Positions 10,605 through 33,274 of a stretch of 34,165 nt of DNA are shown here, one piece after another. The position numbers and the translations under genes are program-made. The notes under the pieces were generated by a model. It was not told where the DNA came from, ran no database searches, and saw only the letters and a program-made list of their open reading frames with translations. Source of the stretch: Alphaproteobacteria bacterium (GTDB lineage Bacteria; Pseudomonadota; Alphaproteobacteria; Bin95); NCBI GenBank assembly GCA_022827685.1, contig JAJEIH010000126.1:1-34165 (forward strand), written 5' to 3'. Position 1 is the stretch's first letter. The number at the start of each line of letters is the position of its first letter.

Positions 10605-12053
10605 TTGACAGGCTGGCGCGACGCACTTCCTTCCGACGGCCTGCTTGCGGTGGTCAAGCGGGACTGCCCGACCTGTGTCCTCGTTGAGCCGGTCCTGGCG
10701 GAATTGGCGGCGGCGGGCGCCGTGGCGGTCACGCAGGACGACCCCGCCTTTCCCGAGGGCGCCGCACCCCGTCACGACAGCGATCTCGAACTCTCCTACC
10801 GCCTCGACATCGAGACCGTGCCGACCCTGATCCGTTTCAGCGGCGGCAGCGAGACCGAACGCGCGATCGGCTGGAACAAGGCCGAGTGGCGCGCATTGAC
10901 AGGCCGCGCGGACCTCGGCGAGAACCTGCCGGAGAATCAGCCCGGTTGCGGGTCGCTGTCGGTCGAGTTCGGGATGCCGGAAAGGCTGGCGGTGCGCTTC
11001 GGCGACATCCCGCTTTCCTCGCGGCGGATTGTCGTGGAGGACCATGACGACCCGATGGAGGCGGCGTTCGACCGGGGCTGGACAGACGGCCTGCCGATCG
11101 TGCCCCCGACCGACCTGCGCGTCGCCCGGATGCTTGCCGGCACGACGCGGGCGGCCGACGAGGTCATCGGGGAAATCCCGCCCAACCTTGTCCCCTGCAC
11201 CGTGGAGAAGGCGGCCATCAACGCCGTCATGGCCGGTTGCCGGCCCGAATATTTCCCGACCGTGCTGGCGGCGGTCGAAGCTGCGCTGATACCGGGCTTC
11301 TCCATGCACGGCCTGCTCTGCACGACCCATTTCGCAGGCCCCGTCATCGTCGTGAACGGCCCCGTTGCGCGGCGTATCGGCATGAACTGGGGCCTGAACG
11401 CGCTCGGCCAGGGCAACCGTGCCAACGCCACCATCGGCCGGGCGTTCCAGCTCATCATCCGCAATGTCGGCGGCGGCAGGCCCGGCGAGATCGACCGCGC
11501 GATGCAGGGCAATCCGGGCAAATACACCTTCTGCTTCGCGGAGGACGAGACCGACCCGGACTGGACGCCGCTTTCGGTCTCCCGCGGCATCCGGCCGGGC
11601 GCGTCGGCCGTCACCCTGTTCCACGGCGAGGGCGTGAGCGGGTTCGTCGACCAGAAGAGCCGCACGGCGGCGGAGCTGACGACCTCGCTCGCGCATTATC
11701 TCTGGCATGTGAACCACCCGAAGCTCTGCGAGTTCGGGGGCGCGCTGCTGGTGCTCTCGCCGGAGCATTACGCCATCTACAAGGCCGAGGGCTGGGGCCG
11801 CACGGAAATCCACGAGGCGCTGTGGACCGCGCTGAAACGGCCGGGGCGCGACGTCGTGCGCGGCGCCGGCGGTCTTGCCGAGGGGATGGAGCCCGGACGG
11901 GAGCACGAAGTCATCGACAAGTTCCGCGAACCCACCTTCCTGATCGCCCGCGCGGGCGGGCCGGCCGGCCTGTTCTCGGCGGTCATCGGCGGGTGGACCG
12001 GAATGCGGATGACCGGAGAAGTCGATCCTGTAACAAAGGAGATCGGTACATGA
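10605..12053 (+). CDS. Thioredoxin-like domain fused to DGLPIVPPT-family protein
   Basis: 482-aa two-domain protein. Residues 1-100 look like a thioredoxin fold: a CPTC active site (21-24) after a beta strand (LLAVVKRD) and the cis-proline turn TVPT (71-74). From about 145 follows a conserved domain of unknown function marked by GWTDGLPIVPPT (158-169), INAVMAGCRPEYFP (C212) and NATIGRAFQLIIRNVGGGRPGE. The same domain occurs twice more in this window (30213-31355 and the C-terminal part of 31363-33087). The TTG start at 10605 is supported by GGAGG at 10593-10597 and by the lack of an in-frame ATG before the CPTC. The stop overlaps the UGSC selenoprotein by 4 bp (ATGA). The inferred role is to supply or accept electrons for that selenoprotein. 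The fold call for the first domain is from motifs only. Confidence 0.82.
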   Translation: MTGWRDALPSDGLLAVVKRDCPTCVLVEPVLAELAAAGAVAVTQDDPAFPEGAAPRHDSDLELSYRLDIETVPTLIRFSGGSETERAIGWNKAEWRALTGRADLGENLPENQPGCGSLSVEFGMPERLAVRFGDIPLSSRRIVVEDHDDPMEAAFDRGWTDGLPIVPPTDLRVARMLAGTTRAADEVIGEIPPNLVPCTVEKAAINAVMAGCRPEYFPTVLAAVEAALIPGFSMHGLLCTTHFAGPVIVVNGPVARRIGMNWGLNALGQGNRANATIGRAFQLIIRNVGGGRPGEIDRAMQGNPGKYTFCFAEDETDPDWTPLSVSRGIRPGASAVTLFHGEGVSGFVDQKSRTAAELTTSLAHYLWHVNHPKLCEFGGALLVLSPEHYAIYKAEGWGRTEIHEALWTALKRPGRDVVRGAGGLAEGMEPGREHEVIDKFREPTFLIARAGGPAGLFSAVIGGWTGMRMTGEVDPVTKEIGT

Positions 12054-12574
12054 CGGAACCCTATGCGATGCGGGACCCGACGGCGGAGACGGAGCCGGCG
12101 ATGCGCCAGCCCGTCGTTCCGCCGACGAACCTCGACGGGCTGACCATCGGCCTGCTTTCCATCGGCAAGGAGCGCTCGGTGGAGTTCCTCGATTCCGTCG
12201 AGGACCGGCTGGCGGCGCAGGGCCTGAAGGTGCTGCGCTTCGCGAAGCCGACGCACACCAAGCCCGCGCCGCGCGGCGTCATCCAGGACCTCGTGGAGCG
12301 CTGCGACATCGTTGTCGAAGGGCTGGCGGACTGAGGCTCCTGCACGTCGTGCAGTTTGCATGACATGAGCGAGCTCGACCGCCTGGGAATGCCCGGCTGC
12401 GCGATAGCGACCGTCGAGTTCCGGGACGCCGCGGCCGCGCAGGCCGACGCCATGGGCGTGCGTCCGGCCGTGGTGTTCGTGGACCACCCGATCCAGAACC
12501 GCACGCCGGAAGAGCTGGCGGACATCGCCGACCGCGCCATCGCGCCGATCCTGGCGGCAATCCGAAGCGGGTAG
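12050..12574 (+). CDS. UGSC-family selenoprotein (Sec95, UGA at 12332-12334)
   Basis: 174-aa protein when the in-frame UGA at 12332-12334 is read as selenocysteine. Residues 1-94 end VVEGLAD, then U95-G-S-C-T-S-C, then LHDMSELDRLGMPGCAIATVEF and on to a TAG stop. The two halves are in the same frame and both resemble the UGSC half of the selenoprotein at 31363-33087: LDGLTIGLL matches LEGKRVAFL, and EGLADUGSC matches SGMGCUGSC. A SECIS-like hairpin starts right after the UGA. The start has AGGAG at 12037-12041 and overlaps the upstream stop by 4 bp. The fold looks like alternating alpha/beta (Rossmann-like). Function is unknown; the Sec-x-x-Cys spacing (U95, C98) suggests a redox centre. Standard callers would stop at residue 94 and call a second ORF from 12356. 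Confidence 0.88.
12335..12367 (+). promoter_or_regulatory. Bacterial SECIS-like element for Sec95
   Basis: Within the coding sequence, 12346-12353 (GTCGTGCA) pairs with 12357-12364 (TGCATGAC), 8 bp with one G-U, closing a GTT loop at 12354-12356. After one C-A mismatch, two more pairs form (12343-12344 with 12366-12367). The loop begins 20 nt after the UGA and its first base is G, as expected for SelB-binding bacterial SECIS elements. Confidence 0.75.
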
Positions 12575-19665: not shown

Positions 19666-21807
19666 CTATGCGAGGGCGGCGGCGCGCACTTCTTCGGGCG
19701 TGAAGGGAATTCGCCGCAGCCTGAGCCCGGTCGCGGCATGAACGGCATTGGCGATCGCGGCTGCGGTGGGGCCAGCCGTTGCTTCCCCGGCACCGAGGAA
19801 CGGCTGCCGACCGGGGTCGATCAGCACGGTCTCGAAGGAAGGCGCATTGTCGAAGCCCAGGATCGGGTAGGCGTCCCAGTCCCGGCTGGTGATGCCCTCC
19901 CGGTCGAATGCCACCGCTTCGTGCAGCGTCCAGCTTGCCGCCTGGATGACCCCGCCTTCGAGCTGCGCGGCGAGGCCGGCGCGGTCCACGATCTCGCCCG
20001 CATCGGCGGCGATGACGCAGCGTTCGAGCCGGATTTCGGCCGCATCGCTCACCGAGACTTCCATGACGACCGCGGCATAGGCGGCGCTGTTCTTGTATTG
20101 CGCGAATCCGAGCCCGCGCCCCCGGCCTTCCGGGCAGTCCGCGCCCGAAGGATCGAGGCGCGCCGCCGCCGCCTCGATGACGGCGCGGCCGCGCGGGTCC
20201 GAAAGGTGGCGGAGCCGGAAGGATACCGGGTCGCAGCCTGCTTCCCCCGCCAGCTCGTCCATGAAGGATTCGATGGCGAAGACATTGGCGTAGGCGCCGA
20301 GCGAGCGCAGCGCCGAGACCCGGAGCGGCATGTCCCGCACCAGATGCTTCACAAGGCGCTTCTGCGGCAGGTCGTAGAGCGGGTCGAGATTGCGGTGGAT
20401 GCCCATATGGCGCCCCATCGCCGGGCCCATGACGGGCGGGGCCAGCGGCTCGGCGAGGAAGCGGGCGGAGAGCAGCCGCGCCGCGCCCATCCTGCCGGGG
20501 CCGGGGCGGGGCCGCATGGAATAGGTGTCGCTGTATGTCTCATGCGACCAGGCGGCGATCCTGCCATCGCCGTCGAGGCTCGCGCGCAGGTCCATCGAGG
20601 CGCAGGACCCGTAGGGCTCCCAGGCATGCTCCTCCCCCCGCATCCATTTGAGCATCACCGGCCCGCCGGGCAGCGCGCGGGCAATGAGCGCCGCATCGAA
20701 GGCGGCGTCGTCCGCGCCGTTATGGCCGTAGCAGCCGGCCCCCGGCGCATGGACGGTGCGGACCGCCCCGGGCTCCATGCCGAACGCCTCCGCCAGCGCG
20801 GCGCGCAGGACATAGACGCCCTGGCTGTGGGTATGGATGGTCAACAGGCCGTCGGCGAAGTTCGCCATAGCCGCCGACGGGCCGAGCGAGCCGTGCATCT
20901 GGTAGGGCCGTTCGTAGCGCGCTTCGAGCGTGGCGGCGCCATCGGCCGGCGGCGGGACCGGCGCCTCGACCGGAGTGCCGTCGACAACCGGCAGGCTCAC
21001 CCGTTCGTTGGCGCGTAGGCTTTCGTATATGTCGCGGGTCTCAAGCCCGCCGCCTATATCCCAGGACGCGGCGGCGGCAAGCCTCTCGGCCGCCCTGACC
21101 GCCGCATATTCGTCGGCTGCCGCGACCGCAAGGAAACTGCCGTCGCGCACGACCTCGACGCCTTCCGCAGCAAGGCGCCCGACCACGGCTTCGTCCAGGG
21201 CCGCGAGCCGCGCATGGTAATGCGGCGGGCGCACCATGCGCGCATGCAGCATGCCGGGCAGGCTCATGTCATGGAGGAAATAAGGCCGCCCCCGGACCAG
21301 CGCCTCCATCGCCCGCGCCGTCGCGGCGGTCCCGACATGGCCGAGGGCCTCGCGCGGCCTGAGCGGCGCAGCCGGATCGACGTCGATCCCGAACGGCCTG
21401 CCGGCGGCGAGTTCCCAATAGCTCGTCTTCCGGTTAGTGGCGCGCGAGTGGATCGCCCCGTCATCGACCTCCAGAGCCGCAACATCCACATCGAGCATCC
21501 GCGCGGCCCGCTCCAGCAGATGCCGCCGCGCCGTCGCCGCCGCCAGCCGGACCGCATTGCCCGTCCGGGCCATCGACTGGCTGCCCGAGGTAAAGCCCTC
21601 GTCCGGCGAGCGACCGGTCTCCACCCGCGCGACCTCCACCCGGCCGGGGTCGATATCGAGCTCGTCCGCAACCAGCAGGGCGACGGCCGTGGAGATGCGC
21701 TGGCCGATATCGACCTTGCCGCTGCGGACGGTGACGGTCCCGCCGGCATCGAAGGCCAGCCAGTCGTCCAGCGCGGGATTGCTCAGGAGGCTGGGGTTAG
21801 CCGCCAT
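19666..21807 (-). CDS. Molybdenum hydroxylase large subunit (xanthine oxidase family)
   Basis: 713-aa molybdopterin-binding subunit related to IorB and aldehyde oxidases; it hydroxylates a carbon next to N or oxidises an aldehyde with water as oxygen donor. The active-site glutamate is E675 in GAGEATAGPTAAAIANAV. Early residues VTVRSGKVDIGQRISTAV and TSGSQSMARTG are typical of the IorB type. No Tat signal is seen, so it is probably cytoplasmic. ATG at 21807 overlaps the small-subunit gene by 11 bp; the longer open frame upstream only overlays that gene. There is no FAD (medium) subunit gene nearby, as in IorAB-type two-subunit enzymes. Substrate is unknown. Confidence 0.93.
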   Translation of the reverse strand: MAANPSLLSNPALDDWLAFDAGGTVTVRSGKVDIGQRISTAVALLVADELDIDPGRVEVARVETGRSPDEGFTSGSQSMARTGNAVRLAAATARRHLLERAARMLDVDVAALEVDDGAIHSRATNRKTSYWELAAGRPFGIDVDPAAPLRPREALGHVGTAATARAMEALVRGRPYFLHDMSLPGMLHARMVRPPHYHARLAALDEAVVGRLAAEGVEVVRDGSFLAVAAADEYAAVRAAERLAAAASWDIGGGLETRDIYESLRANERVSLPVVDGTPVEAPVPPPADGAATLEARYERPYQMHGSLGPSAAMANFADGLLTIHTHSQGVYVLRAALAEAFGMEPGAVRTVHAPGAGCYGHNGADDAAFDAALIARALPGGPVMLKWMRGEEHAWEPYGSCASMDLRASLDGDGRIAAWSHETYSDTYSMRPRPGPGRMGAARLLSARFLAEPLAPPVMGPAMGRHMGIHRNLDPLYDLPQKRLVKHLVRDMPLRVSALRSLGAYANVFAIESFMDELAGEAGCDPVSFRLRHLSDPRGRAVIEAAAARLDPSGADCPEGRGRGLGFAQYKNSAAYAAVVMEVSVSDAAEIRLERCVIAADAGEIVDRAGLAAQLEGGVIQAASWTLHEAVAFDREGITSRDWDAYPILGFDNAPSFETVLIDPGRQPFLGAGEATAGPTAAAIANAVHAATGLRLRRIPFTPEEVRAAALA

Positions 21808-22270
21808 CGGCCGCCCCGGCCACGAGCCGGTCCACCGCCCGCAGCACGTCGGCATGCGCGCCGCAGCGGCAGAGATGGCCCTCCAGCGCCTCGACCGCGC
21901 CCCGCCGGTCCGGGCGCTCCGCCGCCTCAAGATAGGCGGTCAGCGCGACGACCAGCCCGCTCGTGCAGTAGCCGCATTGGGCCGCGCCGGCCTCCAGGAA
22001 GGCGCGCTGCACCGGGTTGAAGTCCCCGTCATCCGCCAGGCCCTCGACGGTCGTAATCGCGCGCGCCTCGAATTCGGAGACGGCGCGGACGCAACTCAGC
22101 ACCTTCTCGCCGTCGGCCATCACGGCGCAGGCCCCGCACTGCTCCAGCCCGCAACCGAGCTTCGCGCCCATCAGGCCGAGTTCGTTGCGCAGCACGAAGA
22201 TCAGCGGCGTCGCCGGGTCCGCCTCGACGTCGCTGACCGCGCCGTTAACATTGAGGACGACCCTGCCCAT
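21797..22270 (-). CDS. (2Fe-2S) small subunit of molybdenum hydroxylase
   Basis: 157-aa electron-transfer subunit with two [2Fe-2S] clusters. The plant-ferredoxin-type cluster uses C40, C45, C48 and C60 (CGLEQCGAC then C). The second uses C99, C102, C134 and C136 (QCGYC and HLCRC). Residues LNVNG near the start and the GLADDGDFNPVQRAF linker are family marks. It is the usual partner of the large subunit and overlaps it by 11 bp; it lies 20 bp after the HdrD-like Fe-S gene. IorA is the closest named type. Confidence 0.95.
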   Translation of the reverse strand: MGRVVLNVNGAVSDVEADPATPLIFVLRNELGLMGAKLGCGLEQCGACAVMADGEKVLSCVRAVSEFEARAITTVEGLADDGDFNPVQRAFLEAGAAQCGYCTSGLVVALTAYLEAAERPDRRGAVEALEGHLCRCGAHADVLRAVDRLVAGAADGG

Positions 22271-22290
22271 TCACGAACGGCGCCGGCGGT

Positions 22291-23595
22291 TCAGCGCGGC
22301 CGGGCCAGCTCGTCGAGGCCGCCGGCGAATTCCCTGCTCGCCAGCATGTCCGGGAGCAGCGAGGCGAGCCACTCGGAGTCGACCGACACGCCGTTCCACT
22401 CCAGCGAGGGCATGGACCTGTCCGCCAGCGCCTGCCAGTCGCCGGCCATCCGCCAGCCCGACAGCAGGTCCTCGCGCGGCTCGCCGCCAAGGGCGCGCAC
22501 GAGGAAATCGGTGAAATTGACGACCGGCGGCCCCTGCGTCTCGGCCCCGGCGGACAGCTGCGCATGGCAGCCGTGGTAGAGCGAGACCAGCGCGTCCACC
22601 TGCTTATCTTCCGCCATCGCATAGGTCGCCTTGCGCCGCTCCGCCTTCAGGCCGGGAGAGCGGTCCTGGCCGGAGCCGCCGCAGGTATATCCCGACTCCC
22701 ACGCGATGCCGGCGATTTCCAGCCCCGGCACATCGCCCAGCAGGCGGGCGACATTCTCTCCGAGGTCGGCCATGCCCTCATGCGCGTGGAGGAGCACCCG
22801 CATCGGCACTTCCGTCGTGTAGAGGCCGCGCAGCCGCTCCTCGTGCTCGACCAGGTAGCCGGTCACATGCTCGAAGGCGAAGGCCGCCTCCCCGTAGCCT
22901 TCCACCGTCTCCCCGATATGCAGCTGGCAGGACGGGCACCAGCTCAGTACGCGCTCGGGCTGGAAGTCCCCGAACCGTTTCAGCGTCCCGTCGGTCACGC
23001 GGCCGCCGGCCTCCGTCTCGCCTTCCCACTTGGTGTGGATGATGCCGCAGCAGGCCGCCGGCCCGCCGAGGACCTCGTAATCGACCTCTATGGCGTCGAG
23101 CACATACATGGCGTTGAACAGCAGGTGCGGCGTGCGCACCGCATTGCAGCCGACATAGAAGACCACCGGGACGGACCGCGGCTTCGGCGGCTGCAACAGC
23201 CTTGCAAGGTCGGCCGGGGCAAGCTGCATCGCCGCCATCAGCCGGATGGCGCGCGCCATCTTGCGGAAGAGCTGCGGCGTGTCGGAATGCGTTTCGGCGG
23301 ATTTGCCGGCGGCGAGCATCACCATGTTGCGCGGGTTGACGCCCTCGGGACAGGCGGGGATGCACGCGCCGCAGCCATTGCACTGATGCGCCCAGGCGGC
23401 CGCCGGCCCGTCCAGCCGCCCGCCGTCCCGCAACACCTGCAACACGCCGCCCGCAACCGCCCCCGGCTCCGCGTCCGAAATCCCCGCATGGGGCACCACG
23501 GGGCAGGCCTCGACACAGGCGCCGCAGCTTGTGCAGGCCGAGACGATCTCCTCCGCCCGCGCGGCCATGAAGGATGTCAGCGAACCGTCCGGCAT
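22291..23595 (-). CDS. HdrD/GlpC-like Fe-S oxidoreductase with two CCG domains
   Basis: 434-aa iron-sulfur protein. Two [4Fe-4S] clusters are marked by C21-C24-C27-C31 and C72-C75-C78-C82 (CTSCGAC...CP and CNGCGAC...CP). The C-terminal part carries CCG-type repeats (YVGCN then GGPAACCG; then YTCGGSG and YHGCHAQL), as in HdrB, HdrD and GlpC. Such proteins move electrons between thiols, quinones and flavoproteins. A role in passing electrons from the molybdenum hydroxylase, which has no FAD subunit, is inferred from the operon. No membrane anchor is seen. It starts 39 bp after the LLM gene. Confidence 0.9.
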   Translation of the reverse strand: MPDGSLTSFMAARAEEIVSACTSCGACVEACPVVPHAGISDAEPGAVAGGVLQVLRDGGRLDGPAAAWAHQCNGCGACIPACPEGVNPRNMVMLAAGKSAETHSDTPQLFRKMARAIRLMAAMQLAPADLARLLQPPKPRSVPVVFYVGCNAVRTPHLLFNAMYVLDAIEVDYEVLGGPAACCGIIHTKWEGETEAGGRVTDGTLKRFGDFQPERVLSWCPSCQLHIGETVEGYGEAAFAFEHVTGYLVEHEERLRGLYTTEVPMRVLLHAHEGMADLGENVARLLGDVPGLEIAGIAWESGYTCGGSGQDRSPGLKAERRKATYAMAEDKQVDALVSLYHGCHAQLSAGAETQGPPVVNFTDFLVRALGGEPREDLLSGWRMAGDWQALADRSMPSLEWNGVSVDSEWLASLLPDMLASREFAGGLDELARPR

Positions 23596-23634
23596 CGAAG
23601 CCTCCTCATATACGGCGCCGGCCGCCCTGCCCGC

Positions 23635-24672
23635 TCAGGCTGCGGCCTCGGCCACCGTGCGGACCGCCTCCGGCGTCGCGCCCGTCAGCGCGATGCCGGC
23701 GACGCGGCCGGCGGCGATGGCGTCCTTCCACGCGCCCAGCCGGTCGCGGATGCGGGCCTTGTCGCCAAGCAGCGCCACGCTGTCCACCAGCTCGTCCGGC
23801 AGCGCGGCGCTCGCTTCCTTGCGCTGGCCGGAGAGGAACAGGTCCTGCACCTTGCGCGCCTCGTCCTCGTAACCCATGCGGGCGACATAATCGTTGTAGA
23901 AGTTCTTGTCGCGCGCGCCCATGCCGCCGACATAGAACGCCAGATGGTCGCGCACCGGGGCCCGGCAGGCCTCCAGGTCGTCGCCGACGCGGACCGGCAC
24001 GAAGGGCACGACCTCGAAATCGTCGGCCGTCTTGCCGTTGCCGGCCCTGGCGAGGCCGTCCGCGATCGGCTCCGCGAAGACATCGCTCTCAGGGTCCATG
24101 AAGACCGGGATCACCCCGTCGGCCACCTCCGCGGCGGTGCGCACGCCGGCCGGCGTGATCGCGGCGGTGTAGATCGTGAGGTCCGGGTCGGGATGCAGGA
24201 TGGTCTTGAGCGGCTTACCGAGGCCGGTGGCGCCCGGCCCGTGATAGGGGATGTCGTAATGCTCGCCGTGATGCTCCAGCACGCCCTCGCGCCGCAGGAT
24301 CTGGCGGATGATCGAGATATATTCGCGGGTGCGCGCCAGCGGCTTGCCGAAGGGCACGCCATGCCAGCCCTCGATCACCTGCGGCCCCGACGGGCCGATG
24401 CCGAGCACAAAGCGCCCGCCTGACATCTCCTGCAGGGTCATCGAGGTCATGGCCGCCAGCGCCGGCGAGCGCGACTGCATCTGGACGATGGCCGTGCCGA
24501 CCTTGATGCGCGAGGTCTGCGCCAGCAGCCAGGCGGCGGGCGTGATCGCGTCCGTGCCCCAGGCCTCCGAGGTCCAGCACATCTCGTAGCCGAGGCGCTC
24601 GGCCTCCTGCACGAGCGCCACCTTGTCCGCCATGTCGCCGCCGCTGTAGCCGAGCGTGATGCCGAGCCGCAT
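23635..24672 (-). CDS. LLM-class flavin/F420-type oxidoreductase
   Basis: 345-aa luciferase-like monooxygenase-fold protein. It begins MRLGITLGYSGGDMADKVAL and has the barrel marks AERLGYEMCWTSEAWGTDAI, TAIVQMQSRSPALAAMT and FVLGIGPSGPQVIEGWHG. These most resemble the actinobacterial-type F420-dependent LLM group, but the cofactor (F420 or FMN) cannot be decided from sequence. GGGGGAGA sits just before the ATG. It is the first gene of the operon with the Fe-S protein and molybdenum hydroxylase, which suggests a joint catabolic path for a substrate not identifiable here. Confidence 0.9.
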   Translation of the reverse strand: MRLGITLGYSGGDMADKVALVQEAERLGYEMCWTSEAWGTDAITPAAWLLAQTSRIKVGTAIVQMQSRSPALAAMTSMTLQEMSGGRFVLGIGPSGPQVIEGWHGVPFGKPLARTREYISIIRQILRREGVLEHHGEHYDIPYHGPGATGLGKPLKTILHPDPDLTIYTAAITPAGVRTAAEVADGVIPVFMDPESDVFAEPIADGLARAGNGKTADDFEVVPFVPVRVGDDLEACRAPVRDHLAFYVGGMGARDKNFYNDYVARMGYEDEARKVQDLFLSGQRKEASAALPDELVDSVALLGDKARIRDRLGAWKDAIAAGRVAGIALTGATPEAVRTVAEAAA

Positions 24673-28460: not shown

Positions 28461-29405
28461 ATGACGACGATGAGCCTGCCGCTGGACGACCGGACGCGCT
28501 TCGGGCTGATGACGCGCCTGCCGACGCCGGAGCTTGCCCGCAAGACGGTCGGGCTGCTGGACCGGCTGGAGTTCGATTCGATCTGGGTCGGCGACCATCT
28601 GGCCTTCACCTCGCCGATTCTGGACCCGTTCGTGCAGCTTTCCTATGCGGCCGCCCTGTCGCCGCGCCTCACTGTCGGAAGCGCCGTCTATCTGTTGCCG
28701 ATGCGCCATCCGGCGGGGGTGGCGAAACAGGCGGCCTCGCTCGACCATCTGGCGGGAGGCCGCTTCGTCTTCGGCATCGGTGTCGGCGGCGAGTTCCCGC
28801 CCGAATGGGAGCTTGCCGGCGTGCCGCACGGCGAACGCGGCGCGCGCATGACCGAGTCCATAGAGGTGCTGCGGAAACTCTGGACCGGCGAGCCGGTCTC
28901 CCACGAAGGGCGGTTCTTTCCCTTCTCGGAAGTGCATATGCAGCCGGCCGCCTTCACGCCCGGCGGCCCGCCGATCTGGTGCGGCGGGCGCCAGCCGGCG
29001 GCGCTCCGGCGCGCGGGCCGCATGGCGGACGGCTACATGTCCTATGTCATCACGCCGGAGATGTTCTCGGACGCGCTCGGCACGATAGCCGCGGCCGCCG
29101 AGGAGGCGGGCCGGGAGATCGAGGCCTTCGGCACCTCCCACCTGCTGTTCTGCTGCATCGACGAGACCTACGAAAAGGCGCTCGACCGGGCGGCGGCGCT
29201 GCTCTCGAAACGCTATGCGATGGATTTCCGCAGGGCGGCGCAACGGTATGCGGCGCTCGGCACGCCCGCCGACATCGCGGAGAAGATCACCGCCTTCCAC
29301 GAGGCCGGCGTGCGCCACTTCAACCTCGACTTCATCGGCGAACAGCCCATGCGCATCGAAGGCCTGCACCGCTTCGCCGAGGAGGTCCGCCCGCTCATCG
29401 CCTGA
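28461..29405 (+). CDS. LLM-class flavin-dependent oxidoreductase
   Basis: 314-aa luciferase-like monooxygenase-fold protein. It has RFGLMTRLP near the start, EFDSIWVGDHLAF, the SAVYLLPMRHPAGVAKQ barrel strand, GGRFVFGIGVGGEFPPEW and PPIWCGGRQPAALRRAGRMADGY. FMN or F420 use cannot be told apart. The ATG at 28461 sits 2 nt after AGGAGG and the ATG at 28470 lies 11 nt after it, so either may be used; the longer form is given. The 3' end overlaps the convergent TrxR-like gene by 11 bp. Confidence 0.9.
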   Translation: MTTMSLPLDDRTRFGLMTRLPTPELARKTVGLLDRLEFDSIWVGDHLAFTSPILDPFVQLSYAAALSPRLTVGSAVYLLPMRHPAGVAKQAASLDHLAGGRFVFGIGVGGEFPPEWELAGVPHGERGARMTESIEVLRKLWTGEPVSHEGRFFPFSEVHMQPAAFTPGGPPIWCGGRQPAALRRAGRMADGYMSYVITPEMFSDALGTIAAAAEEAGREIEAFGTSHLLFCCIDETYEKALDRAAALLSKRYAMDFRRAAQRYAALGTPADIAEKITAFHEAGVRHFNLDFIGEQPMRIEGLHRFAEEVRPLIA

Positions 29406-30216
29406 GCGCGGCGGCGGCCTCCCGCGCAGCGCGCTGGCCGTCCGCCACGGCCTCCGCGAGCGAACCGGCGCGGCGGGCGGCGCCGGCGGCGAACGCGCCC
29501 TCGCCCGCCAGCGCCGTTACGGGCTCGAGGCCGATGAAGACGAACACGCCCGAGACCTCCAGCCGCCGCCCGTCCGCGAGCGTGACGCCCTCGACGCCGC
29601 CTTCGCCCTCGATGGAAGCAACCTCGCTGTTCCAGTGGAAGCTGAACTTCGGGTCGGCCGCCGCCCGCGCCCCGTAACCCGGCCTGGCCCGCAGCCGCCC
29701 GCCGCGCACGATCATGGAAATCGAGCGCGCATAACCGGCCAGGTGCAACGCCTCCTGCAGGGCCGCGTCGCCGCCGCCCACCACCGCCACATCGGCATCC
29801 CTGAAGAAGCCGGCGTCGCAGAAAGCGCATTGCGACACGCCGCGCCCGGTCAGCGCCTCCTCGCCCGGCACGCCCAGCCGGCGGAGCCTTGCGCCGGTCG
29901 CCGCCACGACCGCCTTCGCCCGGTAGCGGCCGCGGTCCGTTTTGACGATCCGGCGGCGGCCCTGCGCGCGGACGGCCTCCACATGCTCCTCGTGGAAGCG
30001 CACGCCCGCGGCCGCGAGCCTGTCCTTCCAGCCATGGGCCAGCTCGGAGCCGCTGACGGCGGCCGGCCAGCCGTCGAGCGCGCCCACATTGGAAACGAGG
30101 CCGCCATAGAGCCCCGACTCGAACAGCGCCACCGCGAGCCCCTGCGAAACCGCCTCGTCCGCCGCCGCGAGCCCCGCGACGCCGCCGCCGACCACGACAA
30201 GGTCGAGCGGCCTCAC
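29395..30216 (-). CDS. Thioredoxin reductase-like FAD/NAD(P)H flavoprotein, short
   Basis: 273-aa pyridine nucleotide-disulfide oxidoreductase of the TrxB type. FAD-binding GGGVAG starts at 10; GLYGGLVSNV follows; the redox pair is C130-AF-C133; the NAD(P)H motif VVGGGDAALQEALHLAG begins at 145. In the NADPH pocket, E. coli TrxB has HRR...R, here VRG...R, so one Arg is lost. TrxB is usually 310-320 aa; this protein lacks about 20-30 residues near the C-terminus, and the FAD-holding G-D of the VFAAGDV motif reads G-A (GAFAAGAAR). GTG at 30216 overlaps the upstream DGLPIVPPT gene by 4 bp (GTGA). It is the last gene of the selenoprotein operon and its probable electron donor. Confidence 0.87.
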   Translation of the reverse strand: MRPLDLVVVGGGVAGLAAADEAVSQGLAVALFESGLYGGLVSNVGALDGWPAAVSGSELAHGWKDRLAAAGVRFHEEHVEAVRAQGRRRIVKTDRGRYRAKAVVAATGARLRRLGVPGEEALTGRGVSQCAFCDAGFFRDADVAVVGGGDAALQEALHLAGYARSISMIVRGGRLRARPGYGARAAADPKFSFHWNSEVASIEGEGGVEGVTLADGRRLEVSGVFVFIGLEPVTALAGEGAFAAGAARRAGSLAEAVADGQRAAREAAAALRR

Positions 30217-31355
30217 GCGGCGATCTCCTTCACGATGCAGCAGGGCGGGAAGCCCCAGGACGGGAACCAGGCGCATTGCGGGATCGGGATGTCGCCGCCC
30301 GCGACGACCAGCACGATGTCCTCCGGCCGCGCAACGGCCGGCACCGCGCCCTCGCCCTGCGTCCATTCGGGCCAGCGCTCGCCGTCGATGAGGCGGGTGC
30401 GCAGCCAGAGCGTTTCGAACGCGGCGCGCGGCATCCGTCCCCGCCGCCAGAGCGCCTCCTTCGCGTCCGCCTTCGACCAGCCCTGCCCCGCCAGCTCCTG
30501 CGCGACGAAGGGCGCCATCACGACTACGGCCTTGCCCTCCCACGCCATGTTGAAGGCCGAGGCGGCGGAGCCCATCACGCTTGCAAGGTCGTCCAGCCCG
30601 CCGGTCACATTGACCGCCGTCTCCGCCCGCATCAGCGCCAGCACGTTTTCGCCGCCCAGTTCCTCATGCAGCGGCTCCCAGGGGTTGGCGGCGGCGTTCT
30701 CGGCCAGCACCAGGGTGTAGCGGCCCGGCTGGCCGAGCCCGGCAAAGGAGACGGCCTCCGGCCAGCCGCCGCCGATATTGTTCATCACGAAGCGGACCGC
30801 GCGCCCGATGGCGGCATTGGCCTGCCAGCCCGGCCCCAGCATGCCGAAGCCGGCATTCACCTCCAGCCGCTCCACGACCGGCCCGCTCAGCAGGATGAGC
30901 GGCGCCACATTCTCGTCCGTGGTCTGCACGCCGCGCAGGTTGAATGCGGGGTCGGCCAGCGCCTCCACGGCAGCCACGACGACCGGGAAATGCTCCGGCG
31001 CGCAGCCCGCCATGACGGCGTTGGCGGCCACGCGCTCGACCGTCGCCACGCCTTTCAGCGGGTCGAGCTCGCCGAGGCTTTCGTTGCGCCCCCGCCCGCA
31101 GCCGCGAAGCATCGCGTCCACCCGGTCGAGCGTCGGCGGCACGATGGGCAGGCCGTCTGTCCAGCCGCGGCGGTAGTAGAGCGCGTTCGCATCCCCGCCG
31201 CGCAGCACCTCCACCCGCTGCCGGGGAAACCGTCCGGCCTCCGTCAGCCGGGCGGTCATGCCCTTCTCGCGCGCCCGCTGAACGAGCGTGTCGTCGATCC
31301 ACGCCCCGTTCGCCCTCTGGCCCGCCGGTATCAGCAGCCAGAGCGCCTCACCCAC
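30213..31355 (-). CDS. DGLPIVPPT-family protein with C-terminal Cys cluster
   Basis: 380-aa protein of the same unknown family as the main domain of the 10605-12053 product and the C-terminal part of the 31363-33087 selenoprotein. The family marks are RGWTDGLPIVPPT (63-75), ANAVMAGCAPEHFP (C118) and NAAIGRAVRFVMNNIGGGWPE. Its C-terminus has an extra Cys motif, PQCAWFPSWGFPPCCIVKEIAA (C361, C372, C373), not seen in the others. GTG at 31355 lies 7 bp after the upstream stop and is the only start there; ATG at 31259 would drop the first 32 residues. It overlaps the TrxR-like gene by 4 bp. A redox role with Cys as relay is inferred. Confidence 0.85.
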   Translation of the reverse strand: MGEALWLLIPAGQRANGAWIDDTLVQRAREKGMTARLTEAGRFPRQRVEVLRGGDANALYYRRGWTDGLPIVPPTLDRVDAMLRGCGRGRNESLGELDPLKGVATVERVAANAVMAGCAPEHFPVVVAAVEALADPAFNLRGVQTTDENVAPLILLSGPVVERLEVNAGFGMLGPGWQANAAIGRAVRFVMNNIGGGWPEAVSFAGLGQPGRYTLVLAENAAANPWEPLHEELGGENVLALMRAETAVNVTGGLDDLASVMGSAASAFNMAWEGKAVVVMAPFVAQELAGQGWSKADAKEALWRRGRMPRAAFETLWLRTRLIDGERWPEWTQGEGAVPAVARPEDIVLVVAGGDIPIPQCAWFPSWGFPPCCIVKEIAA

Positions 31356-31362
31356 GCCGCGT

Positions 31363-33087
31363 TCAGCCGGCAACTGCCAGCCGGGCCTCCCAGTCCGCCG
31401 GCAGTTCGATCTCGCGGGTGACGGGGAAGCCGAGTATGCCGTTATGCGCGAAGACGTAGGCGTTGGTGCGCAGCGGGTCGCCCGCGACCGCAATCCCGAA
31501 ATCGTCGGGCTCGCAGACGATGGGCACCATCCGCTCCGGATCTTCGGATTCCGCGAAGACCTCCGGCGCCTTGCCGAGCGCCACGAGCTCCGCCAGCGAG
31601 CGGTGGCCCGGCACCAGGTTGGTCCAGCCCGAGATATACTGCTCGAACTTCCGGGCCGGCATCCGCGCATGCTCGTACAGCCAGTCGCGCATGTCATCCT
31701 TGGAGAGCCCCGATCCGGCGATGGTCTCGGCCAGGATCGGCGACAGCACCAGCAGCGGCCGGTAGGTGCCGGTCGCCATGCCGACGGTGAACACGAGTTC
31801 CCAGCCCGACTGCTTGACCAGCGCATCGGCCAGATAGGGCAGCATTTCCTCCGCCCGGCGGCCGAAGACGGACGTCACCACATCACCGCCGGTATAGCGG
31901 GAGACGGTGACGGCGTTGGCGCCTTCCGGCAGGCCCATGTCGGTCGCCGTGTTCGGCCAGCCGATCCGCTGGAGCACATCCTCGTTCTCGGCGAGCGCCA
32001 CCCGCCAGGTGTTGCCGAAAGTGCCCTTGTCGGTCTCGTGCGGAATGAAGCCCGCGACATTGCGCAGGTAGAGCCGCCAGAAGCGTCCGACCGAGGTGTT
32101 GGCCTGGAAGCCGTCCCTGAGCGCGCCCTGCTCATAGTTGAAGCCGAGCGCCTTCGCGATCGGGCCGTTGACGGTAATCAGCGTCTCCGCCCCCGGCGTG
32201 TTGCCGGAATGCTCGACGCCGTATTCCGGGTCCGCCATCGCCTCGGCGAGCGCCACCAGCACCGGCATGTATTCCGGCCGGCAGCCGGCCATGACGCCGT
32301 TCGCGGCGACATTCCAGACCGTCGCCGCCCGGTTGTCCGGCGGCAGCTTGCCGAGCACGGCATCCGCAGGCCGGTCCGAGAAGGCGAGGAAACGCTCGAT
32401 CTTCTCCACCGAGGGCGGCACCACGGGCAGCCCGTCGGACCAGCGGTTCTCGTAGAAGAGGCGGTTCACCTCCTCGAAGCTGCCCTCGAACACGATGTCG
32501 CGCGCCTCGGGCTCGACGGTCTCCACGGCCTCGTCCGGCGGCTCGGTCAGATTCGCGACCACCGCATCCAGCGTCTCGCCCAGCACATTGGAGCGGAGCT
32601 CGTTGTCGGTCTGCGTATCGACATGGCCGGCCACCGGCGCCAGCGGCAGGTTCGGCATGCCGAGCCCGACGGCCGTGGTGCCCGCCTGGCCGACAAAGCC
32701 CTCGCAGACCAGGGAAGAGGACGGCACGCCCGCCGCTTCGGCCACTGCGCTCACCCGCAACACGGCGGGAGTGCAGGAGCCTCAGCAGCCCATCCCGGAG
32801 ATAATGGCGTCGGCCTTGAGCTCCCTCAGCCGGTCCGGCAGGGAGGCGATGATCTCGCGCTCCTCGTCGCCATGCGTGGAGCCGAAGGCGTCGTAGCCGA
32901 TGAAATCGACGCCGGGATAGCGCTCGGACAACCCGTCCGCCAGCATCGGGAAGATCTCGTCGCCGCGGAACAGGTAGTCCCAGAGGAAGGCGACGCGCTT
33001 GCCCTCAAGGCTGTCGAGGCGCGGCGCCGGCGCCTGCAGCTCCTGCGCCTTCTCGCCCCGGGGCCAGACGACCGCATAGTCGGCCAT
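31363..33087 (-). CDS. UGSC-DGLPIVPPT fusion selenoprotein (Sec102, UGA at 32784-32782)
   Basis: 574-aa selenoprotein if the in-frame UGA at 32784-32782 is read through. Residues 1-101 (to SGMGC) are followed by U102-G-S-C-T-P, then a second half of the UGSC domain (to about 180), and then the DGLPIVPPT domain: RWSDGLPVVPPS (215-226), NGVMAGCRPEYMP (C269), NTSVGRFWRLYLRNVAGF. The UGSC half is paralogous to the 174-aa protein at 12050-12574. Fourteen bases, TGAGGCTCCTGCAC, are identical at the two UGA sites. A SECIS-like stem-loop lies 17 nt after the UGA. Standard callers would give a 101-aa ORF (33087-32782) and a 466-aa ORF from TTG at 32763. It heads an operon with a second DGLPIVPPT gene and a TrxR-like gene. 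Function is unknown; redox chemistry is inferred. Confidence 0.9.
32748..32781 (-). promoter_or_regulatory. Bacterial SECIS-like element for Sec102
   Basis: On the minus strand CCCGC (32769-32765) pairs with GCGGG (32758-32754), closing a 6-nt loop CGTGTT (32764-32759). Further pairs continue below with two mismatches (32771 with 32752, and 32775-32773 with 32748-32750). The loop starts 18 nt after the UGA and has G in its second position, fitting bacterial SECIS rules. Confidence 0.75.
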
Positions 33088-33246
33088 GGGTTCGTTCTCC
33101 CGCTTGAATTGCCGTCGCCGCGAGGCTGCGACCGGGGGCCTCCCGCGTCAAGAGCCCTGCTGCATGCCCGCGCGTCCGCTATGCCTGTGGCGCCCTCCGC
33201 CAGGGCCGGGGGACGGCCGGGGGACCGGCGGAAGTGTCATGGCATG
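33088..33246. other. Upstream region of the selenoprotein operon
   Basis: This 159-bp gap should carry the promoter of the 33087-29395 operon. GGGAGAACG (33102-33094) before the ATG is a fair Shine-Dalgarno. I see no clear -10/-35 pair. The left part of a 10-bp repeat array begins at 33235. Confidence 0.4.
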
Positions 33247-33274
33247 TCATGGAATGTCATGTTTTGTCATGGGG
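33235..33274. repeat. Four 10-bp TGTCATG repeats
   Basis: Four consecutive 10-bp units each begin TGTCATG: TGTCATGGCA, TGTCATGGAA, TGTCATGTTT, TGTCATGGGG. The period equals one DNA turn. A similar but weaker array is at 33437-33476. It overlaps the end of the unknown gene 33247-33930 and the upstream region of the selenoprotein operon. Confidence 0.75.

Follow-up and report, generated by a model that had tools for sequence, protein, structure and literature searches.

The gene at positions 31363-33087 on the minus strand of the window (the whole stretch of 34,165 nt analysed here) almost certainly encodes, on the strength of sequence comparison, a genuine selenoprotein fusion in which an in-frame UGA is read as selenocysteine (Sec) and a UGSC domain continues into a DGLP domain. 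Overall, we favour a model in which this Sec-inserted 574-aa fusion forms the catalytic part of a thioredoxin-driven reductase resembling the glycine and proline reductases. The gene and its parts are as follows.

31363..33087, minus strand: UGSC-DGLP fusion selenoprotein, 574 aa, Sec at residue 102, stop codon TGA included
32782..32784, minus strand: in-frame UGA for selenocysteine 102, with UGA in 77 and Cys in 4 of the 81 fusions, window gene counted
32754..32769, minus strand: bacterial-type SECIS stem-loop CCCGC-CGUGUU-GCGGG, with conserved stem
32545..33072, minus strand: UGSC domain (PF24696), residues 6-181, by Pfam match
31366..32496, minus strand: DGLP domain, about residues 198-574, motif SDGLPVVPP, invariant Cys269 in NGVMAGC
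33097..33101, minus strand: probable ribosome-binding site GGGAG 5' of the fusion ATG, from sequence

Further upstream, four CATGAC units lie at 33230-33272 with a spacing of exactly 10 bp, 184 to 154 bp before the fusion ATG; two of them are retained in the nearest relative and none in the remaining close relatives, and the array is possibly an operator or due to chance.

The in-frame UGA as a selenocysteine codon

A sequence-only reading of this DNA had located an in-frame UGA at 32784-32782 on the minus strand and proposed that read-through joins both domains in one 574-aa protein. Both points are borne out: with TGA taken as Sec, the frame at 31363-33087 holds 574 residues, a single interrupting UGA and zero further stops. 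An open frame alone is weak evidence here because the DNA is 69% GC and the opposite strand over the fusion is likewise open, for 695 aa. A search of 84,980 species genomes for relatives of the full-length fusion protein yielded 136, of which the best 80 were retained; all counts of 77 UGA genes or 81 fusions given below refer to these best 80 of 136 relatives together with the window gene. The frame is continuous through both domains in 80/80 of these best relatives, and position 102, in named genomes, reads UGA in 76 of the 80 and Cys in the other 4. The Cys forms (Bradyrhizobium sp. NFR13, Tardiphaga sp. P9-11, an Azospirillaceae MAG and a Pseudomonadota MAG) are fused homologues with a single uninterrupted ORF, which the sequence-only reading had itself named as the check on its proposal. 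The [UC]GSC motif that characterises the UGSC family has its Sec or Cys in all 81 fusions, the window counted. Homologues split at the Sec site, which that reading took to speak against it, are not what we find: where the two domains are encoded separately, the genes are adjacent and the break falls between the domains, near residue 190. These split UGSC/DGLP pairs, from haloarchaea, Arthrobacter and Roseovarius, have Cys at the Sec position.

The window fusion aligns over its full length with eight relatives of its own family, with protein identities of 96-98% to members of its genus and 63-64% to those of the next one. Across these eight, conservation flanks the UGA on both sides, including the stretch GSCTPAVLR that follows it. 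Nucleotide differences fall mainly at third codon positions, and do so alike before the UGA, from the UGA to residue 190 and in the DGLP part, as expected of one coding frame.

The stem-loop past the UGA conforms to what is required of a bacterial SECIS element, a stem-loop a short way past the UGA whose first loop bases include a G, and to its earlier description: its 5' arm begins 12 nt past the UGA and its 6-nt loop, CGUGUU, 17 nt past, with G in second position. The stem is intact in 77/77 UGA genes and lost in 4/4 Cys genes among the best 80 of 136 relatives plus the window; one UGA gene has a CCUGC arm in which G-U pairing preserves the stem. Synonymous codons within the stem are fixed in the UGA genes: Arg is CGG in 77/77 vs 29% elsewhere in the same genes, Ala is GCC in 77/77 vs 46%, and Pro is CCC in 76/77 vs 31%, while the Cys genes use CGC or AGG, GCG or GCT, and mostly CCG at these respective codons. 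The pair flanking the stem is mostly G-C and in other genes A-U; 42/47 distinct rows are paired, a number that 0/10000 shuffles reach, although the shuffle is generous in that the rows are related. In the window the core stem has five pairs and the outer flanking pair is a U-U mismatch. Rfam gave no match at gathering score. The sequence-only reading had also pointed to the 11 bases after the UGA, which recur at a second UGSC gene in the window (locus 1, UGA at 12332 on the plus strand). The identity is real, but its reading as a nucleic-acid signal was rejected: the 11 bases encode Gly-Ser-Cys-(Thr) and the codons differ among relatives, Ser being AGC in 54/77 and TCC in 11/77 UGA fusions, so that the identity, as judged from these sequences, is an effect of protein sequence and codon usage.

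The source genome, about 99% complete, has the full selA/selB/selC/selD set that marks a bacterium making selenoproteins: a tRNA-Sec gene (selC) with anticodon UCA, selB (435 bits) with selA (538 bits) immediately before it, and selD (275 bits). It holds six UGSC genes, with one in-frame TGA in each of the six matches. SelB scores above cut-off in 20/21 other genomes with a Sec fusion and is in pieces in the remaining one, and was found in only 2/4 genomes with a Cys fusion. No contig encoding the fusion was present among the viral contigs searched for a viral origin.

If the UGA were instead an ordinary stop, the locus would yield two proteins, an N-terminal piece of 101 aa and, from GTG 32763, a protein of 466 aa. 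Both open reading frames do exist, and such pieces are annotated in public records, for example in Acidovorax sp. T1 and Paracoccus ferrooxidans. Yet GTG 32763 sits within the UGSC domain, the residues GSCTPAVLR past the UGA are conserved, the stem is present in every UGA gene and missing from every Cys gene, and the Cys homologues run uninterrupted; we therefore regard termination at this codon as extremely improbable. In the public records in question, UGSC genes are cut at the UGA on Acidovorax sp. T1 plasmid p2-T1 (L162, 7929-8219) and on Paracoccus ferrooxidans pFER4 (L174, 6372-6941), the latter close to selB; annotations that end UGSC genes in this way are mis-annotations.

Partnership of the two domains and proposed electron supply

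The fusion is the first gene of a tight operon, with two further genes behind it on the same strand, and locus 1 carries a related pair.

30213..31355, minus strand: second DGLP-family protein with DGLPIVPPT motif, GTG start 7 nt past the fusion stop
29395..30216, minus strand: thioredoxin-reductase-like flavoprotein with CAFC redox motif, start overlapping the stop of the preceding DGLP gene
10605..12053, plus strand: locus 1 DGLP protein with N-terminal thioredoxin-like domain (CPTC ... VPTL)
12050..12574, plus strand: locus 1 separate UGSC selenoprotein, UGA at 12332-12334, start overlapping the DGLP stop (ATGA)

The DGLPIVPPT domain thus has its own gene at locus 1 (10605-12053), as had been reported from the letters alone, and several observations support the further proposal of a joint function: at least two changes between the fused and the split state on a tree, the partnering of all six UGSC genes of the source genome with DGLP, and shared operons with thioredoxin reductase (TrxR). 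In the source genome, UGSC is fused to DGLP twice and placed after a DGLP gene four times (6/6 partnered). On a tree of 61 UGSC domains, window-type fusions form one clade (support 100/99), and the fused/split label changes about five times, of which at least two changes are forced by well-supported branches; the change counts are unsure owing to long branches. UGSC-DGLP pairs are adjacent in Natrinema, Halorientalis and Halalkalicoccus, Haloterrigena has the order UGSC-DGLP-FAD oxidoreductase, the last with a CAKC motif, an Arthrobacter isolate has trxB-trxA-DGLP-UGSC and Roseovarius has DGLP-UGSC-trxB. Within about 8 kb, one Burkholderiales contig holds two window-type fusions, a UGSC gene on its own and a further free-standing DGLP gene. 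More distant fusions in Sporomusa termitida (L165, 7980-9704) and Vibrio europaeus (L172, 6374-8059) adjoin aconitase X and DUF126; both have DMGTS for DUGSC, with loss of both redox residues, which are accordingly not universal.

In profile searches of the 69 fusion loci with enough flanking sequence, a DGLP paralogue lies downstream of the fusion in 34, a DGLP gene followed by TrxR in 23, and both downstream partners are missing in 34. The operon flavoprotein matches thioredoxin reductase (TIGR01292) at 195 bits and has the CAFC motif, but stays under the 343-bit family cut-off, and it is a divergent TrxR relative, probably specialised. For a paralogue of the locus 1 DGLP protein, the best PDB sequence matches are all thioredoxins, although weak (E 0.034); Pfam does not recognise the thioredoxin-like domain of locus 1. 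With the trx and TrxR genes and this domain taken together, thioredoxin and thioredoxin reductase both recur as partners. In isolates, the neighbourhoods contain CoA transferases, enoyl-CoA hydratases, and tricarboxylate or TRAP transporters and resemble catabolic islands, which suggests the use of imported organic acids; no single pathway recurs among them that would name the substrate, and the literature on Acidovorax sp. T1 gave no lead. Elsewhere in the window, at 19666-24672 on the minus strand, a molybdenum hydroxylase large subunit, an Fe-S/CCG protein and a luciferase-like monooxygenase are encoded in a row, a possible catabolic operon.

Domain families, predicted structure and the probable link to GrdB/PrdB

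The N-terminal 181 residues of the fusion match the UGSC family PF24696 at 96.3 bits over residues 6-181, above the Pfam gathering score of 25 bits, and contain the UxxC motif with Sec. Against the NCBIfam equivalog NF041046, the fusion scores 41.5 bits, below the cut-off of 125, and locus 1 scores 121.5. The fusion differs from the family in its extra 380-aa domain and in the context of the motif, CUGSCTPAV in place of DUGSC. From about residue 198 onwards, in the DGLP domain, no Pfam or NCBIfam family matched, and neither the fusion nor its profile brought up a meaningful hit when searched against PDB sequences. Cys269 (NGVMAGC) is invariant in fusion, free and thioredoxin-linked DGLP proteins. 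AlphaFold2 (59 rows) modelled the whole fusion with pLDDT 93.1 and pTM 0.92, with the same values for DGLP alone. The UGSC model is a Rossmann-like alpha/beta domain, similar to PurE (Z about 9-11), with Sec between a strand and a helix; the structural matches listed for it are Rossmann-like, and the lack of thioredoxin from that list does not exclude a thioredoxin fold. The DGLP model has no clear fold match in the PDB by Foldseek or VIA-align. The top Foldseek candidate, class I fumarate hydratase, was rejected as a relative (TM about 0.2, rmsd near 18 Å; VIA-align Z at most 5.3 over 93 residues). Fe-S fumarases have three cysteines, and the DGLP domain has one invariant Cys, not three.

In GrdB and PrdB, a UxxC selenolate takes part in the reductive cleavage of a substrate bond, and in the glycine reductase system the electrons are supplied by thioredoxin and thioredoxin reductase. 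Compared by hhalign, the profile of the UGSC domains and that of small GrdB/PrdB-like relatives of PF07355 align over 65-76 columns at a probability of 93-95%, which places Sec against Sec and Cys against Cys. With only the fusion rows the value is 91% and with only the standalone UGSC rows 80%; 40 column shuffles give at most 6%, reversed rows 0.4%, and the TrxR and DGLP controls under 1%. PF07355 (the GrdB family) does not match the fusion itself, for which hmmscan reports only PF24696, even at E 10. These sequence comparisons make it likely that the UGSC and GrdB/PrdB active-site domains are remote homologues, as distinct from members of one family. The two share Sec in UxxC between strand and helix in an alignable register, and the fusion has thioredoxin and TrxR partners as does, from established knowledge, the grd operon; unlike GrdB and PrdB, the fusion escapes PF07355 and has the DGLP domain as its partner. 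Small PF07355 relatives occur in the source genome and in 13/141 others of the class, many with a [UC]PxC motif, and across the class both U forms and C forms of these PrdB/GrdB-like relatives are present. The source genome itself encodes two short selenoproteins of the PrdB/GrdB kind, one with UPNC and one with UPVC.

A model for the fusion and its alternatives

In our model, SelB, directed by the stem-loop past the UGA, would insert Sec at residue 102 and the ribosome would go on into the DGLP domain to give one 574-aa protein. Electrons from NAD(P)H would pass to the TrxR-like flavoprotein, from there to thioredoxin or a fused thioredoxin-like domain, and on to a selenenylsulfide in C101-U102-G-S-C105, formed by U102 with C101 or C105. 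The freed selenolate would then attack a small substrate bound by the DGLP domain, with a possible role for the invariant C269 of that domain. A small imported organic acid or a related compound is the probable substrate. Counting against the model are the DMGTS fusions of Sporomusa and Vibrio, the many fusion loci that lack a TrxR gene and the failure of Pfam to assign the fusion to the GrdB family. By analogy with the known reductases, we give about even chances to the fusion being part of a thioredoxin-driven reductase, and put forward more tentatively that it may perform a GrdB-like bond cleavage. With similar reserve, we speculate that UGSC and DGLP together might represent a new class of thioredoxin-dependent reductive cleavage, in which GrdB/PrdB-like selenoenzymes use an undescribed substrate-binding fold, in Proteobacteria, Actinobacteria and, as Cys forms, haloarchaea.

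A different function for a real selenoprotein has to be weighed against this model, namely that of a peroxidase or thiol-repair enzyme of the thioredoxin or peroxiredoxin kind that cleaves no substrate. The UxxC motif and the thioredoxin and TrxR neighbours would suit such an enzyme, and a 2008 survey assumed a thioredoxin-like fold for UGSC (PMC2398784). We nevertheless consider this function rather unlikely, since the predicted UGSC structure is Rossmann-like, with PurE as an example (Z about 9-11), the profile link goes to GrdB/PrdB, and the isolates have the catabolic-island neighbours described above. Somewhat less probable still is an arrangement in which the DGLP domain is the enzyme and the UGSC domain only an electron donor or regulator. 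DGLP copies do outnumber UGSC copies at the window locus, with a free DGLP gene after the fusion, and in some fusions the UGSC part no longer has Sec or Cys; against this, Sec or Cys is retained in 81/81 of the window clade (best 80 of 136 relatives, window counted), and every UGSC gene of the source genome has a DGLP partner.

As a selenoprotein family, UGSC is already known (PMC2398784, PMC9312934, PMC13188914), and according to the 2008 survey its members rank with the most abundant selenoproteins of the Global Ocean Sampling metagenomes (PMC2398784). Neither the family nor a UGSC fusion is new, as the same survey makes clear: it lists a 'UGSC/Unknown_1' fusion (Fig. S1A) alongside its guess at the fold (PMC2398784). 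Like the fusion studied here, that protein joins a UGSC selenoprotein to a conserved, functionally uncharacterised domain, with conserved Cys, and Unknown_1 is, as far as this account goes, likely to be the DGLP domain; unlike the present analysis, the main text of the survey offers neither operon nor mechanism (PMC2398784). In the open-access literature we found no description of the DGLP domain, the TrxR operon or the GrdB link, and the DGLP-thioredoxin module and the GrdB link appear to be undescribed there.

The analysis ties the UGSC family, which has had no assigned function, to one partner domain, to thioredoxin reductase and to the active site of the glycine and proline reductases, and shows a type of gene that is halved in some public annotation. 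The model offers a concrete activity to assay, also in the isolates with Cys forms, whose proteins can be expressed without selenium.
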